DNA of 64,000 bases from Sphaerochaeta associata (lineage in GTDB: Bacteria > Spirochaetota > Spirochaetia > Sphaerochaetales > Sphaerochaetaceae), in assembly GCF_022869165.1 (NCBI RefSeq), contig NZ_CP094929.1:1240001-1304000 (forward strand), given 5' to 3'. A program made the position numbers and the translations under genes. Below are positions 46,011 through 51,135 of the stretch, piece after piece. Position 1 is the stretch's first letter. Every line of letters begins with the position of its first letter. The notes beneath the pieces are model-generated. The model did not search any database. It was not told where the DNA came from and saw only the letters and a list, made by a program, of their open reading frames with translations.

Positions 46011-46039
46011 ATCCTCCCAAGCGATTGGGAGGATTTTTT
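46011..46039 (+). terminator. Rho-independent terminator after the small protein gene
   Basis: ATCCTCCCAA (46011-46020) and TTGGGAGGAT (46025-46034) form a 10-bp stem with the GNRA loop GCGA, followed by TTTTT. Confidence 0.92.
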
Positions 46040-47366
46040 ATGGGGCGTAATAGGTTTCACACAGGTTCAAGGCATTCAGCTTCACTTCTTGGTTGGGAAG
46101 GGTCATGGTGTGCAATACCCGTCCGGATGCATTGAGGAAGGAGAACTCCAGGTCATAGACACCAGGATCCAGGTCGATGGAACCTACCCATGCCTCTGAA
46201 GGCAGGAAATGAGTGGAACGTACATCAGCACGCTCAGAGACATCCTGGGCGACACGGAAGATCAAGCCCAACAGCTCCTCGGCGGCTGTTACCTTTTCAT
46301 CCTGTTGAGCAACAGAATCATAGATGGCGATACCCACCGCTTTGGCCATGGCACGCAAGACTGCCTTGGTCTTGGCTAATTCACTCTTCGATCGGAAGGT
46401 ATCGATCGCAACATCACTGATGGATTCAATCTTTTGCAGGACGGTCTCTTCCTGTCCCGTTGCCTTGACCCTTATGCTCTGCACGTTGGAGTATCGTCCC
46501 ACCAGAACAGGGTAGGCGATTTTGGCATGATTGGTCGGGCTGACAGAGAAGTACTCCCACCGCTCCTGTTTTTGCGGAGCCTGTCCGCTGAATGAGAGGA
46601 GATGCAGCCGTGCCTTACCCTCTTGAGGATCGCTTTGCTCGACCGAAGAGGGAAGGGAGAAGCGGTATAACTGCGGTTGGGAGGCAAACGCATGCTTTAC
46701 TTGCTCCTTGGCGTAATATGCCGTTGAACTCTCACCTAATGACTGAGCAACAAGAGAGGCCAGGTAGTTGGTGAGTGCGCTTGTTGAGAAGGAGGCTGCA
46801 AAGGTTTCTGTATTGACACCCCCCAAGCCTTGCTGCGAGGCATAGTCACGAACCTGTTTTCTGTACTGTTCGTATTTCTGCTTCAGCAACGCCTGCTTCT
46901 CCATGCTGCGGTTGAGTTCAACCAAGGCGGACTCTTCCTGGCCGAGAGCAAGGAAATTCAAAGCCTTGAACAGGTTCAGGTAGATATCTTCATACTCCTC
47001 ACCTTGATAGGCCTTGGTGTTGTCGTTGACGATGAAGGAGGCGATATTGGCTGTGATGCTCTGGGTATAGGCTTCACGGATAAGCCGTTCCGATTCGGAG
47101 AGCAGGTTGTTCGACTCCTGGTAGTTTTTATTCAGACGGGCGAGCATGCCTAAATCGTAGTTGACGATGATCGGTCCCTGGGCTTTCAGCAGACTGGGGG
47201 CCTGCATCTGAAGATTTTGGTAGGCTTTGTCATAGTTCCCTTGCATGATATGCATTTGGGAGCTGGAGAGATCAACATAGGATGAACATCCAAGGAACAA
47301 GGTTGGACAGAGCAGCAGCAGGCAGAGCAAACGGGTCGTAAAAATCATGTGGTGTGTAGTTCTCAT
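46038..47366 (-). CDS. Lipoprotein, COG3014-like, TPR-type
   Basis: About 442 residues. The signal peptide ends with the lipobox L-F-L-G-C-S-S, so the mature protein should be lipidated. It begins with helical repeats (M-Q-G-N-Y-D-K-A-Y-Q-N-L, A-L-N-F-L-A-L-G-Q-E-E-S-A-L-V-E-L-N-R) that resemble TPRs and the COG3014 family, then a mixed strand-rich half. In other bacteria COG3014 genes neighbour lpoB, as here in divergent orientation. ATG 47366 and ATG 47348 are both possible; neither has a strong ribosome site. The in-frame ATG at 47417 would put too long a tail before the signal. Function is unknown, likely envelope-related. Confidence 0.75.
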   Translation of the reverse strand: MRTTHHMIFTTRLLCLLLLCPTLFLGCSSYVDLSSSQMHIMQGNYDKAYQNLQMQAPSLLKAQGPIIVNYDLGMLARLNKNYQESNNLLSESERLIREAYTQSITANIASFIVNDNTKAYQGEEYEDIYLNLFKALNFLALGQEESALVELNRSMEKQALLKQKYEQYRKQVRDYASQQGLGGVNTETFAASFSTSALTNYLASLVAQSLGESSTAYYAKEQVKHAFASQPQLYRFSLPSSVEQSDPQEGKARLHLLSFSGQAPQKQERWEYFSVSPTNHAKIAYPVLVGRYSNVQSIRVKATGQEETVLQKIESISDVAIDTFRSKSELAKTKAVLRAMAKAVGIAIYDSVAQQDEKVTAAEELLGLIFRVAQDVSERADVRSTHFLPSEAWVGSIDLDPGVYDLEFSFLNASGRVLHTMTLPNQEVKLNALNLCETYYAP

Positions 47367-47555
47367 ACCTTGGTTTGTTCCCTTCGCCATGGCAACAATG
47401 TAGCATTCCTGCCTCATGCACGCAACAAGACAGTACTCAAAAAATGGGGCATTTGTATGTTTAAACCTCTTTTATTCTACACAATGGGCCGCTTATCTGG
47501 TACACTTTGTAACGAAACACGCCCTTTATGGGTTTTGGAACAAGGAGAGCCTGAA

Positions 47556-48167
47556 ATGAAACGAACCTTGTATGGGAGCCTGCTCCTTTTTATTATGATG
47601 ATGTTGCTTCTCTCCTGCCAATCGGGCGTTTCGGTGAACCGGCTCAGCGCTGATGCCGACATCGATTTGAGCGGGAACTGGAACGATACCGATATCCGTA
47701 TTGTCTCTGAAGCCTTGGTTGAGTCGAGTTTCTCCTCACCGTGGATAACGCAGTTCCGGATGAAGCATCCAGGAAAGAATCCGGTGGTCATCGTCGGCAC
47801 CTTCCTCAATCGCAGCAGTGAGCACATCGATACATCCATTATTGCGAAACGTTATGAGATGTCGTTGATCAATTCCGGTAAAGTCGACATGGTCGCCGAC
47901 CAGTCCTTCCGTGCCTCTGTACGCGATGAACGGGAAGAGCAGCAGTACTTCGCAAGCGAAGAGACCGCCAAGGCCCTGGGTAAGGAAATTGGTGCCGATT
48001 ACTTGTTGCAGGGAGCGGTTCGAACCAATCTCGACCAGAGTGGGAACCAAACAGTCCGGACCTACTATGTCTCTGCCGAGTTGATCGACATCGAAACCAA
48101 CCGCAAGGTCTGGGTTGGTGAAGAGACCATTAAGAAGCTCATTAAACAGAGCAAGTACAAGTTCTAG
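47556..48167 (+). CDS. LpoB-family lipoprotein (penicillin-binding-protein activator)
   Basis: A 203-residue lipoprotein with lipobox L-L-L-S-C and the LpoB family start D-I-D-L-S-G-N-W-N-D-T-D. In enterobacteria LpoB reaches from the outer membrane through the wall and stimulates PBP1B. The remaining half shows V-V-I-V-G-T-F-L-N-R-S-S, A-D-Y-L-L-Q-G-A-V and I-E-T-N-R-K-V-W-V-G, all typical. ATG 47556 has AAGGAGAG eight bases upstream; the frame is open back to 47349 but carries no other good site. It heads a five-gene lipoprotein operon. The partner PBP is not in the window. Confidence 0.88.
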   Translation: MKRTLYGSLLLFIMMMLLLSCQSGVSVNRLSADADIDLSGNWNDTDIRIVSEALVESSFSSPWITQFRMKHPGKNPVVIVGTFLNRSSEHIDTSIIAKRYEMSLINSGKVDMVADQSFRASVRDEREEQQYFASEETAKALGKEIGADYLLQGAVRTNLDQSGNQTVRTYYVSAELIDIETNRKVWVGEETIKKLIKQSKYKF

Positions 48168-48175
48168 GAGGCCCG

Positions 48176-49201
48176 ATGACCAAACTTGGCAGATTCGCAC
48201 TCCCGGTCTTGGTTTTCCTGATGCTCGTCTCCTGTACTCAGTTGGATGGCTCCCGTTCTGGTGCTCCGATGTGGTTGGATCGTGCATATGACGGAAAGTA
48301 TAATGAAGAGACATACCTGTGTGCGGTCGGTTCAGGTTCGACCAGGGAACGGGCCGTCGAATCGGCGCTCTCCTCATTGTCCCAGATTTTCAACGCCCAG
48401 GTTCGTTCGGTCACCGAGGTGACCAGTCTTTCCAGCAGGGAGACCGATGTTGCAGGAAATGTCACCTTCGCAGAGTCTTCAGATATGTTGGAGATCGGGT
48501 CTGTCACTTCCCGGACGGAGCAAATCATCGGAGCGGAGGTCGTCGGCACCTATACCGACGCACTGGGAAGGGTGTATGCCCGGGTAGCCTTGCATCGAAA
48601 GCGCACTGCAGATCTCTATCAGAACCGTATAGCAGATCTTTCGACCTCGTTGGCGCAAGCGCGGACGAAGAGTGCTCTCGCCTCGGATGACGTACGTTCT
48701 TATTTACTGTTGTTGCAGGCCAAGAGTCTTGCCCGCGAGCAGCAATCGCTGTATGACCAGTTGCAAGTGCTGCTTCGTCAGCCTCAGAAGCAGGTACTGC
48801 TCGGCTATGAGCGCGAGCTTGCAGCCCTCGCAGAGCGAATACAGGTCAAGGTGGAAGTCTCCTCTGACAGCCTCAGCACTCCAGTATTGCAGGCGGCCTT
48901 CGAGAAGGGACTGCAAGATTTTGGATTCAGGATTTCCGATCAAGGACAGGGTCCGGTCCTCACGGTTGTGTATACTGTAGAGCCCCTTGAGATGGCTGAC
49001 AGCCCGTATCGATATGCCAGATACACGCTTGCTGTTCAGTTCAAGCGTGGCTCCGAGACCTATCTTTCCTACGAAAAAAGTGAGCGGGAAGCAGCTCTCT
49101 CACAGGTCGATGCGGTGGCAAAAGCCTTGCGGTCGGCTGGTAAAAACGGTGTTGAAGAATTCTTTAGCCTCATGCTGACAACGCTTGGGGATGAAACGTA
49201 G
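48176..49201 (+). CDS. LPP20-like lipoprotein, 341 residues
   Basis: The lipobox is M-L-V-S-C, followed by A-P-M-W-L-D-R-A-Y-D, a tryptophan motif shared with LPP20-type proteins. A helix-strand domain (S-G-S-T-R-E-R-A-V-E-S-A-L-S-S-L-S-Q-I-F) resembles the LPP20 fold, and V-G-T-Y-T-D-A-L-G-R-V-Y-A-R-V-A-L closes it. The rest is helical (about 150-210) and then strand-rich. It starts 8 bases after lpoB with AGGAGG, so it is co-transcribed. Role unknown, presumably outer-membrane or periplasmic and linked to LpoB. Confidence 0.75.
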   Translation: MTKLGRFALPVLVFLMLVSCTQLDGSRSGAPMWLDRAYDGKYNEETYLCAVGSGSTRERAVESALSSLSQIFNAQVRSVTEVTSLSSRETDVAGNVTFAESSDMLEIGSVTSRTEQIIGAEVVGTYTDALGRVYARVALHRKRTADLYQNRIADLSTSLAQARTKSALASDDVRSYLLLLQAKSLAREQQSLYDQLQVLLRQPQKQVLLGYERELAALAERIQVKVEVSSDSLSTPVLQAAFEKGLQDFGFRISDQGQGPVLTVVYTVEPLEMADSPYRYARYTLAVQFKRGSETYLSYEKSEREAALSQVDAVAKALRSAGKNGVEEFFSLMLTTLGDET

Positions 49202-49214
49202 TGGAGGTTTCACA

Positions 49215-49799
49215 ATGAAAACAAAGTATGCGGTAATCGCACTCGTATTGCTGGCACTTATCTTAACCGGATGTGCATCAACCAAAGTAAAAGACGCTCC
49301 GGCTCCCGCCCGTCCTGTGATAATCGGTGCTGAAGGCATCCCCCAGCCTGAGTGGGTGTACAAAACCATTTCCACCCAGGATGTCCATTTTGAGACCGGG
49401 TATGGAAAGATGAGCGACAAGCAGAATTCCATCAAGCGTGCTACCGTTGAAGCGAAGAACAAGATTGCTGCATGGGTGAGTACCACCGTCAAGGAAGTGG
49501 TGGTAACCTATGTCAATGATGCAGGCAGCGGGGACAACCGTCAGGCCCTCGATGCCATGGAAGTAATCAGCCAGCAGGTTGCGGAGGCCACGCTCAGCGG
49601 AGTCACCACCGAAGAGATTTGGGTTGATGCAGAAGGGGCTGTGTGGGTTCTCTGTTCCATCCCGATGGCTAACATAGAGAAGAATTTTGAACCCGCTGCC
49701 GATGCTGTAGCGGAAGCCTTTGTTGAAAGCGACGCAGCAGCTGCTGCAAATGCAAAAATGAAGGATGCGTTCGCCAACCTGCTCAAGGGAGCAATGTAA
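49215..49799 (+). CDS. LPP20-like lipoprotein, 194 residues
   Basis: The lipobox is I-L-T-G-C-A-S. The mature part follows the LPP20 plan: P-E-W-V-Y-K, F-E-T-G-Y-G-K, S-I-K-R-A-T-V-E-A-K-N-K-I-A-A-W, and late V-D-A-E-G-A-V-W-V-L-C-S-I-P. The C-terminus is alanine-rich and helical. It resembles the product of 50575 closely in architecture, so the two look like tandem paralogues. ATG 49215 is 13 bases after the previous stop. Function unknown. Confidence 0.78.
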   Translation: MKTKYAVIALVLLALILTGCASTKVKDAPAPARPVIIGAEGIPQPEWVYKTISTQDVHFETGYGKMSDKQNSIKRATVEAKNKIAAWVSTTVKEVVVTYVNDAGSGDNRQALDAMEVISQQVAEATLSGVTTEEIWVDAEGAVWVLCSIPMANIEKNFEPAADAVAEAFVESDAAAAANAKMKDAFANLLKGAM

Positions 49800-49802
49800 G
49801 CT

Positions 49803-50564
49803 TTGGCGGCTAAGAGTGGCCATGTAATGCTCTCTTTGCTCATACTCCTGGCTTTCAGCAGCTGTGCTACGGTTGGCCGGGAGGGGGGCTCTGATGTACT
49901 TGCTTCGCTGGATGTCAGCAAGTACCCGGGCAATGTATATGTAGGCATCTCAGGTCCCTACTCAACAAAGGAGAGGATGGTTGAAGAGGCCATCCTCTCT
50001 GCTGCAAAAAGCATCCATCTCAATCAGGCCATCGCCTTGGACAGTCGTCTGGTTACCTCCTATCACTCAAGCGTTGGACTTACCTCCTTTGCTGTGGATG
50101 AGGCCGCATACTTTGACGATACCGCCATGGCACAGACCATTGAGGCCCTCAAGGTCCTCTCGGTTCAGTTTGACGAACAGGCAGGGGCAGTGGTTTTGGT
50201 TGCCTATCCAGAGCAGAAGGAGCAGAAGCGCATCTATCAATCGATATATGATGACCAAGGAAGACCCACTTGGTTGAAAACCTACCCAAAGGTTGAAGGG
50301 TATCGATTTGGAATCGGGTCTGCAAAGCGCTACTACTTTCTCAATGACTCATTGGAAGCGGCCGACTTCGCCGCCGCCCAGAATTTACTGGATTTGAAGA
50401 CCGACCATGCACTATCGGTGGAGAAGGTCAGCACCCATGATGAGGTGATGCAACGCGATCTCTATCAGGCCCAGCGGGGTCTTTTGTCCGGTTTTACCAT
50501 CCTTGCCCGCTATTATGACAAGGAAACGCAGACATACTGGAGCTTGGCCTCCTGCTATGAATAA
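49803..50564 (+). CDS. LPP20-like lipoprotein, 253 residues
   Basis: The lipobox is A-F-S-S-C-A-T. The mature part starts with G-N-V-Y-V-G-I-S-G-P-Y-S-T-K-E-R-M-V-E-E-A-I-L-S-A-A-K, an LPP20-like core. It later has R-F-G-I-G-S-A-K-R-Y-Y and a C-terminal L-L-S-G-F-T-I-L-A-R-Y-Y. The start is uncertain: TTG 49803 has AAGGGAG ten bases upstream, and ATG 49827 is the alternative. Either leaves a valid signal peptide. Third LPP20-like gene of the operon. Confidence 0.7.
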   Translation: MAAKSGHVMLSLLILLAFSSCATVGREGGSDVLASLDVSKYPGNVYVGISGPYSTKERMVEEAILSAAKSIHLNQAIALDSRLVTSYHSSVGLTSFAVDEAAYFDDTAMAQTIEALKVLSVQFDEQAGAVVLVAYPEQKEQKRIYQSIYDDQGRPTWLKTYPKVEGYRFGIGSAKRYYFLNDSLEAADFAAAQNLLDLKTDHALSVEKVSTHDEVMQRDLYQAQRGLLSGFTILARYYDKETQTYWSLASCYE

Positions 50565-50574
50565 GGATGTATCC

Positions 50575-51135
50575 ATGAAACGAAGTGTTGTTGTAATCCT
50601 GCTTGGCGTATTGCTTCTTGCAAGTTGCGCCACTCCCAAAATTAATCCTGATGGATCGCCGTACTGGACGACCCATACCCCTAAGAGCACTCGGACCATG
50701 CACTACGAAGTAGGCTCGGCAAAGCAATCTACGCCTCAGTTGAGTCAGCTGCGTGCCGAATCAGCAGCCAAGGATGCCATCGGTCGATGGGCCTCCACCA
50801 ATGTGGATAATGCATTGGTGACCTTCATCGAGGAAGCCGGAGAAGTGCTGAAGACGCAGCAGATGCTGGAAGTCCTTCAGAACCTGAGTATCCAGACGGT
50901 CAACATCGGTCTCAGAGGCGTTACCTTTGAAGAGCGCTACACCGCACCCGACGGTACCGTATGGGTTCTTGCCTCCTATCCGGTCAAGAACCTCAAGGAT
51001 GCCTACAAGCAGCAGGCGGTCGAGCTTCAGCAGCGCATGGCCCTTGCCGAGGCACAGGCACAGGCTCAAGTGCTCCAAGCAGAAGCCATGCTTGCATTCC
51101 TTGATGCACAGCTTGAGAAAGAAATCGAAGAGTAA
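50575..51135 (+). CDS. LPP20-like lipoprotein, 186 residues
   Basis: The lipobox is L-L-A-S-C-A-T. It shares P-Y-W-T-T, Y-E-V-G-S-A-K, A-K-D-A-I-G-R-W-A-S-T-N and P-D-G-T-V-W-V-L-A-S-Y-P with the 49215 product, then ends in a long glutamine/alanine-rich helix (A-L-A-E-A-Q-A-Q-A-Q-V-L-Q-A-E-A) likely to be a coiled coil. ATG 50575 has AAGGAT nine bases before it; the longer frame from 50503 lies inside the previous gene. Last gene of the lipoprotein operon, followed by a terminator. Confidence 0.78.
   Translation: MKRSVVVILLGVLLLASCATPKINPDGSPYWTTHTPKSTRTMHYEVGSAKQSTPQLSQLRAESAAKDAIGRWASTNVDNALVTFIEEAGEVLKTQQMLEVLQNLSIQTVNIGLRGVTFEERYTAPDGTVWVLASYPVKNLKDAYKQQAVELQQRMALAEAQAQAQVLQAEAMLAFLDAQLEKEIEE

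Follow-up and report, generated by a model that had tools for sequence, protein, structure and literature searches.

LpoB-like proteins outside the enterobacteria carry the name "penicillin-binding protein activator" by similarity. In Escherichia coli, LpoB is an outer-membrane activator of PBP1B, and a disordered stretch of 145 Å is reported to let it reach the UB2H dock (PMC6220978); LpoB with its UB2H dock has been described, using stringent cut-offs, as restricted to enterobacteria (PMC3060616). In Helicobacter pylori, the lipoproteins HP1454 and HP1456 are encoded in a single operon and have the disk protein FlgP and also FapH as interaction partners (PMC11756786), and the LPP20 fold has been reported for FlgP and FlgT. 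Deletion of hp1456 is reported to leave bacitracin resistance normal. Homologues of the TPR lipoprotein HP0018 adjoin an LpoB homologue in enterohepatic Helicobacter species; H. pylori without HP0018 hypervesiculates and is less helical, and HP0018 co-immunoprecipitates with MltD and AmiA (PMC11394524). For Sphaerochaeta, PBP1a, 2 and C, rodA and mreC have been reported absent (PMC7738495), and S. coccoides is reported to have a single transpeptidase (PMC4423922). Missing PBPs had thus been described before; in the literature searched, we found no report of lpoB being retained alongside the missing PBPs.

A cluster of six lipoprotein genes

The window analysed here is a stretch of 64,000 nucleotides from the complete 3.55-Mb genome of Sphaerochaeta associata. 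Between positions 46038 and 51135 it contains six neighbouring lipoprotein genes (Table 1), all present where the first-pass annotation had placed them and each encoding a product with a lipobox (LLSC, LVSC, LTGC, FSSC, LASC, or FLGC). The run lpoB-lpp1-lpp2-lpp3-lpp4 is co-directional with intergenic gaps of 3 to 13 bp and ends at a 12-pair stem followed by a T-run, in agreement with the proposed five-gene operon and strong terminator. A promoter scan, covering the intergenic region between the divergent units (47349..47555), gave promoter-like signals that were not in excess over shuffled sequence. Across the genus, the COG3014 gene is divergent and the five-gene run is retained at most loci, so that the arrangement is not due to chance; conservation of the cluster had been suggested as a check.

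Table 1. Features of the lipoprotein cluster (positions are those of the window)
Feature	Position	Strand	Description
COG3014-like lipoprotein, about 436 aa	46038..47348	-	lipobox FLGC; N-terminal TPR-like helices; C-terminal beta + long-helix part
Intergenic region between divergent transcription units	47349..47555	.	
lpoB-like lipoprotein, 203 aa	47556..48167	+	PF13036; motif N-R-S-S-E-H-I-D-T; short tail after lipid anchor
lpp1, 341 aa	48176..49201	+	LPP20 domain + LptE/CsgG-like domain, HP1454 architecture
lpp2, LPP20-like lipoprotein, 194 aa	49215..49799	+	PF02169 8.5e-4, 20.1 bits, below cut-off
lpp3, two LPP20-like halves, 253 aa, TTG start	49803..50564	+	profile comparison
lpp4, LPP20-like, lpp2 paralogue, 186 aa	50575..51135	+	PF02169 1.1e-3, 19.8 bits, below cut-off
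Intrinsic terminator-like stem-loop	51156..51183	+	12-pair stem, then T-run; ATTTTTTTGT tail

The window LpoB matches PF13036 with an E value of 1.1e-34 (119.9 bits against a gathering score of 22.3), and a profile built from spirochaete LpoBs matches the LpoB structures 4q6z and 2mii. On the TIGR02722 equivalog it reaches 91.1 bits, below the cut-off of 110.55. Five further LpoBs paired with COG3014, taken from three phyla, likewise stay below it (75 to 94 bits), whereas E. coli LpoB scores 218 bits. The distance between the lipid-bearing cysteine and the domain is about 20 to 25 residues, compared to about 50 to 60 in E. coli. A motif, N-x-[ST]-x-E-H-[IL]-[DE], is retained across phyla and present in 66 of the 69 LpoBs encoded directly upstream of COG3014, but is missing from E. 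coli LpoB. The window protein is a member of a COG3014-paired subfamily. The first-pass annotation had taken as its starting point that the usual function of LpoB is to activate a class A PBP; given the equivalog score, the paired subfamily, and the reported restriction of the LpoB/UB2H system to enterobacteria (PMC3060616), this function should not be transferred here.

The partner protein owes the name "COG3014-like" to that annotation. It matches no Pfam family of its own, although its size, its TPR part, and its lpoB neighbour fit the name. The gene is present and divergent, with its start corrected: position 47348 is likelier than 47417, with upstream starts possible as far as the latter. 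In the AlphaFold model (pLDDT 90.9), the structural neighbours are TPR-like, those in the PDB covering mainly the TPR-like N-terminal half. An alignment of COG3014 that is blind to lpoB, used to scan 84,980 species genomes, gave 71 loci, which belong to Spirochaetota, Bacteroidota, and Omnitrophota. At 69 of them, the gene immediately upstream is an lpoB in the same orientation, and at the other 2 the COG3014 gene is at or near a contig end. Because this association spans three phyla, lpoB-COG3014 is, on the evidence of gene order, an ancient pair. In Spirochaetota, lpp1 often follows as the third gene.

The description of the remaining four genes as LPP20-like holds, on evidence that differs between them. 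Lpp1 lies above the Pfam cut-off (PF02169, 2.9e-9; 37.7 bits against a gathering score of 25.9). Its predicted model (pLDDT 85.9) aligns with HP1454 (4kzs; Z 11.6, rmsd 5.5, 236/242 residues), its first domain (residues 29-152) with Lpp20 (5ok8; Z 9.7), and its second domain matches LptE, CsgG, PelC, and FlgT. For lpp2 and lpp4 the assignment comes from their joint profile, which finds H. pylori Lpp20 in the PDB (5ok8, E 0.0011). The two are 37% identical over 120 aa (E 2e-21) and are thus duplicates, as had been proposed, though not adjacent ones, since lpp3 lies in between. Lpp3 has no Pfam match and is assigned by profile comparison only: hhalign relates its second half to the lpp2/lpp4 profile at 97% and the first to the lpp1 profile at 91%.

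Wall-synthesis genes in the genome and its relatives

No GT51 (PF00912) class A PBP was found in the whole window genome, nor in any of the 139 genomes of its family, with 10 of 14 controls positive. Across the phylum, GT51 is present in 241 of 247 genomes, and the six without it are the sample's six members of the window genome's family. A class A PBP elsewhere in the genome, which the first-pass annotation had named as the finding that would count against it, is therefore absent, while lpoB is conserved: counted at E below 1e-20 for the family, it occurs in 55 of the 139 family genomes and in 25 of the 26 genomes of the genus. The accompanying premise of a genome devoid of PBPs is correct for class A but not in general: the genome retains a single protein with a transpeptidase domain, which is a class B PBP of 555 aa (PBP_dimer + Transpeptidase), together with one SEDS protein. 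PF00905 is found in 59/139 family genomes, with a single match in each. The MraY of the genus (C1:1527465-1528271 in the window genome) does not reach the equivalog cut-off, and the match starts only at about position 16-28, the N-terminal part being diverged or short.

A search for UB2H gave no hit in the window genome, although strongly diverged docks could be missed. In the phylum, 79 weak hits were rejected as docks because the ORFs that contain them mostly have the sizes of UvrB and Mfd (about 660-700 or 1070-1290 aa) and because the top four proved to be UvrB_inter domains. The lpoB-COG3014 pair lies 4 to 13 kb from a GT51 gene in 16 relatives from other families (f30, f38, and f46; loci L081-L090), possibly reflecting a former connection with class A PBPs. 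In relatives, eight such PBPs whose genes are close to lpoB consist of Transgly and Transpeptidase only, with no UB2H.

MraY is present in 63 of the 139 family genomes. True MurG, for which we required an E value of 1e-50 or lower and coverage of most of the model, is almost wholly limited to these, the other family genomes having weak, partial matches. Taking a genome with MraY or a PBP as a wall-maker divides the family into 65 wall-makers and 74 others; lpoB is found in 46 of the former and 9 of the latter, as raw genome counts that ignore kinship. The nine (G263, G270, G286, G293, G300, G312, G359, G362, and G366) have no MraY, PF00905, or GT51, and at most weak and partial MurG matches; five of them are 95% to 96% complete. 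In G286, G300, G362, and G366, the lpoB, COG3014, and LPP20 genes are adjacent with open frames, and in G300 lpoB shares a 217-kb contig with the genome's own diverged SEDS gene, which argues against contamination of that genome. From their gene content, some lpoB-keeping relatives appear not to build a cell wall.

We joined the LpoB and COG3014 sequences, including the four intact wall-less copies, and built a tree. These four and three wall-making family members form one clade (SH-aLRT 99), which neighbours the copies of f3, another family of the class (SH-aLRT 99), by inference the treponemes, and stands apart from the main family clade that holds the window. In this tree, the relation between the wall-less copies and the window's is not one of simple orthology; the former may have been transferred or descend from an old second copy rather than reflecting plain retention.

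Several further features of the genomes without wall synthesis deserve mention. The COG3014 gene of G293 (L109 6584-9558) is broken into three open pieces next to an intact lpoB. Among the family's 74 genomes that have neither MraY nor PBPs, most (e.g., G226, G300, and G311) still encode a SEDS protein, though a diverged one (E from about 1e-20 to 1e-45), an odd retention for cells without genes for lipid II synthesis. In two wall-less genomes, a transglutaminase-core gene lies just downstream of an LPP20 gene (L115:1149-2216 and L146:12713-13804); PF01841 is matched in L115, and a relative of the protein is present in L114.

Candidate roles of the module

We favour, with a probability of about 0.55, the reading that the module is a periplasmic outer-membrane lipoprotein scaffold that is independent of PBPs. 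Its core would be the LpoB-like protein and the COG3014 TPR partner, an ancient lipoprotein module, to which LPP20/HP1454-type lipoproteins would add an accessory layer in spirochaetes. The lipid anchors of these proteins probably sit in the outer membrane, where the proteins would assemble into a periplasmic scaffold that stabilises this membrane or ties it to periplasmic partners, acting other than by class A PBP activation. The stabilising role is suggested by the reported Helicobacter phenotypes together with the folds. The "PBP-independent envelope role" of the first-pass annotation has become likelier with the lpoB copies in genomes without wall-synthesis genes and is put forward here as a proposal. 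Several observations run against the scaffold: in the family, lpoB goes with wall genes (with the reservation about kinship given above), 16 relatives have it close to a class A PBP gene, and the wall-less copies form a separate clade near Treponema-like ones. The normal bacitracin resistance of the H. pylori hp1456 deletion also counts against it. A wider claim is more tentative, namely that PF13036-COG3014 represents an old lipoprotein machine of the outer membrane that has nothing to do with making peptidoglycan and was kept or acquired even by bacteria that no longer have a wall, with enterobacterial LpoB a late derivative recruited to PBP1B.

The co-occurrence of lpoB with wall genes in the family, and its proximity to class A PBP genes in some relatives, would suit a switch of partner, in which LpoB activates wall synthesis via the SEDS-class B PBP pair that remained after class A PBP loss; a single SEDS protein and a single class B PBP are indeed still present. 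We nevertheless regard such a switch as unlikely, since lpoB copies occur in genomes without PBP, MraY, or true MurG, about nine wall-making genomes of genus g127 do without lpoB, and in the window genome lpoB lies about 240 kb from ftsW and the class B PBP gene. The same wall-less copies bear on a second alternative, that the module controls peptidoglycan hydrolases (an amidase and a lytic transglycosylase), a role put forward for HP0018 acting with AmiA and MltD, both of which co-immunoprecipitate with it (PMC11394524). Such control would have no purpose in genomes without wall synthesis, and we consider it rather less probable still.

The module might also be an inherited leftover of the class A PBP system that is gradually being lost, as its disappearance from many family members and the broken COG3014 gene in G293 could indicate. 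This we find very improbable: within the genus, lpoB is lacking from a single genome, the frames are mostly intact, the motif is conserved, LPP20 paralogues have been added, and the lpoB-COG3014 pair is conserved over three phyla.

Irrespective of which role applies, a group with lpoB but no class A PBP, some members of which have no wall-synthesis genes, offers a clean natural experiment on LpoB-COG3014 function and makes a case against automatic naming as "penicillin-binding protein activator". Genes of the same kind are present in Helicobacter and Campylobacter.

Comparison with known systems

With E. coli LpoB, the window protein shares the LpoB domain (PF13036) and the lipoprotein anchor. 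It differs in falling below the equivalog cut-off, in its shorter tail, in the N-x-S-x-E-H-I-D-T motif, and in having a COG3014 partner, in a genome with no UB2H-bearing PBP1B. The FlgO/FlgP/FlgT disk and ring proteins and the lipoproteins of the CsgG/PelC/LptE type resemble the window's proteins at the level of the fold only, and the window cluster shows no flagellar, curli, or Pel genes. HP1457 (the LpoB homologue), HP1456 (Lpp20), and HP1454 of H. pylori have counterparts in the window cluster. HP1454 and HP1456 interact with flagellar disk proteins, whereas the non-spiral spirochaetes are reported to have lost their genes for motility (PMC12236494), and a flagellar role in the window genome is therefore unlikely. 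The homologues of HP0018 that stand beside the LpoB homologue in Helicobacter may be likened to the COG3014-like TPR partner of the window; H. pylori differs in that HP0018 is encoded apart from its LpoB homologue.
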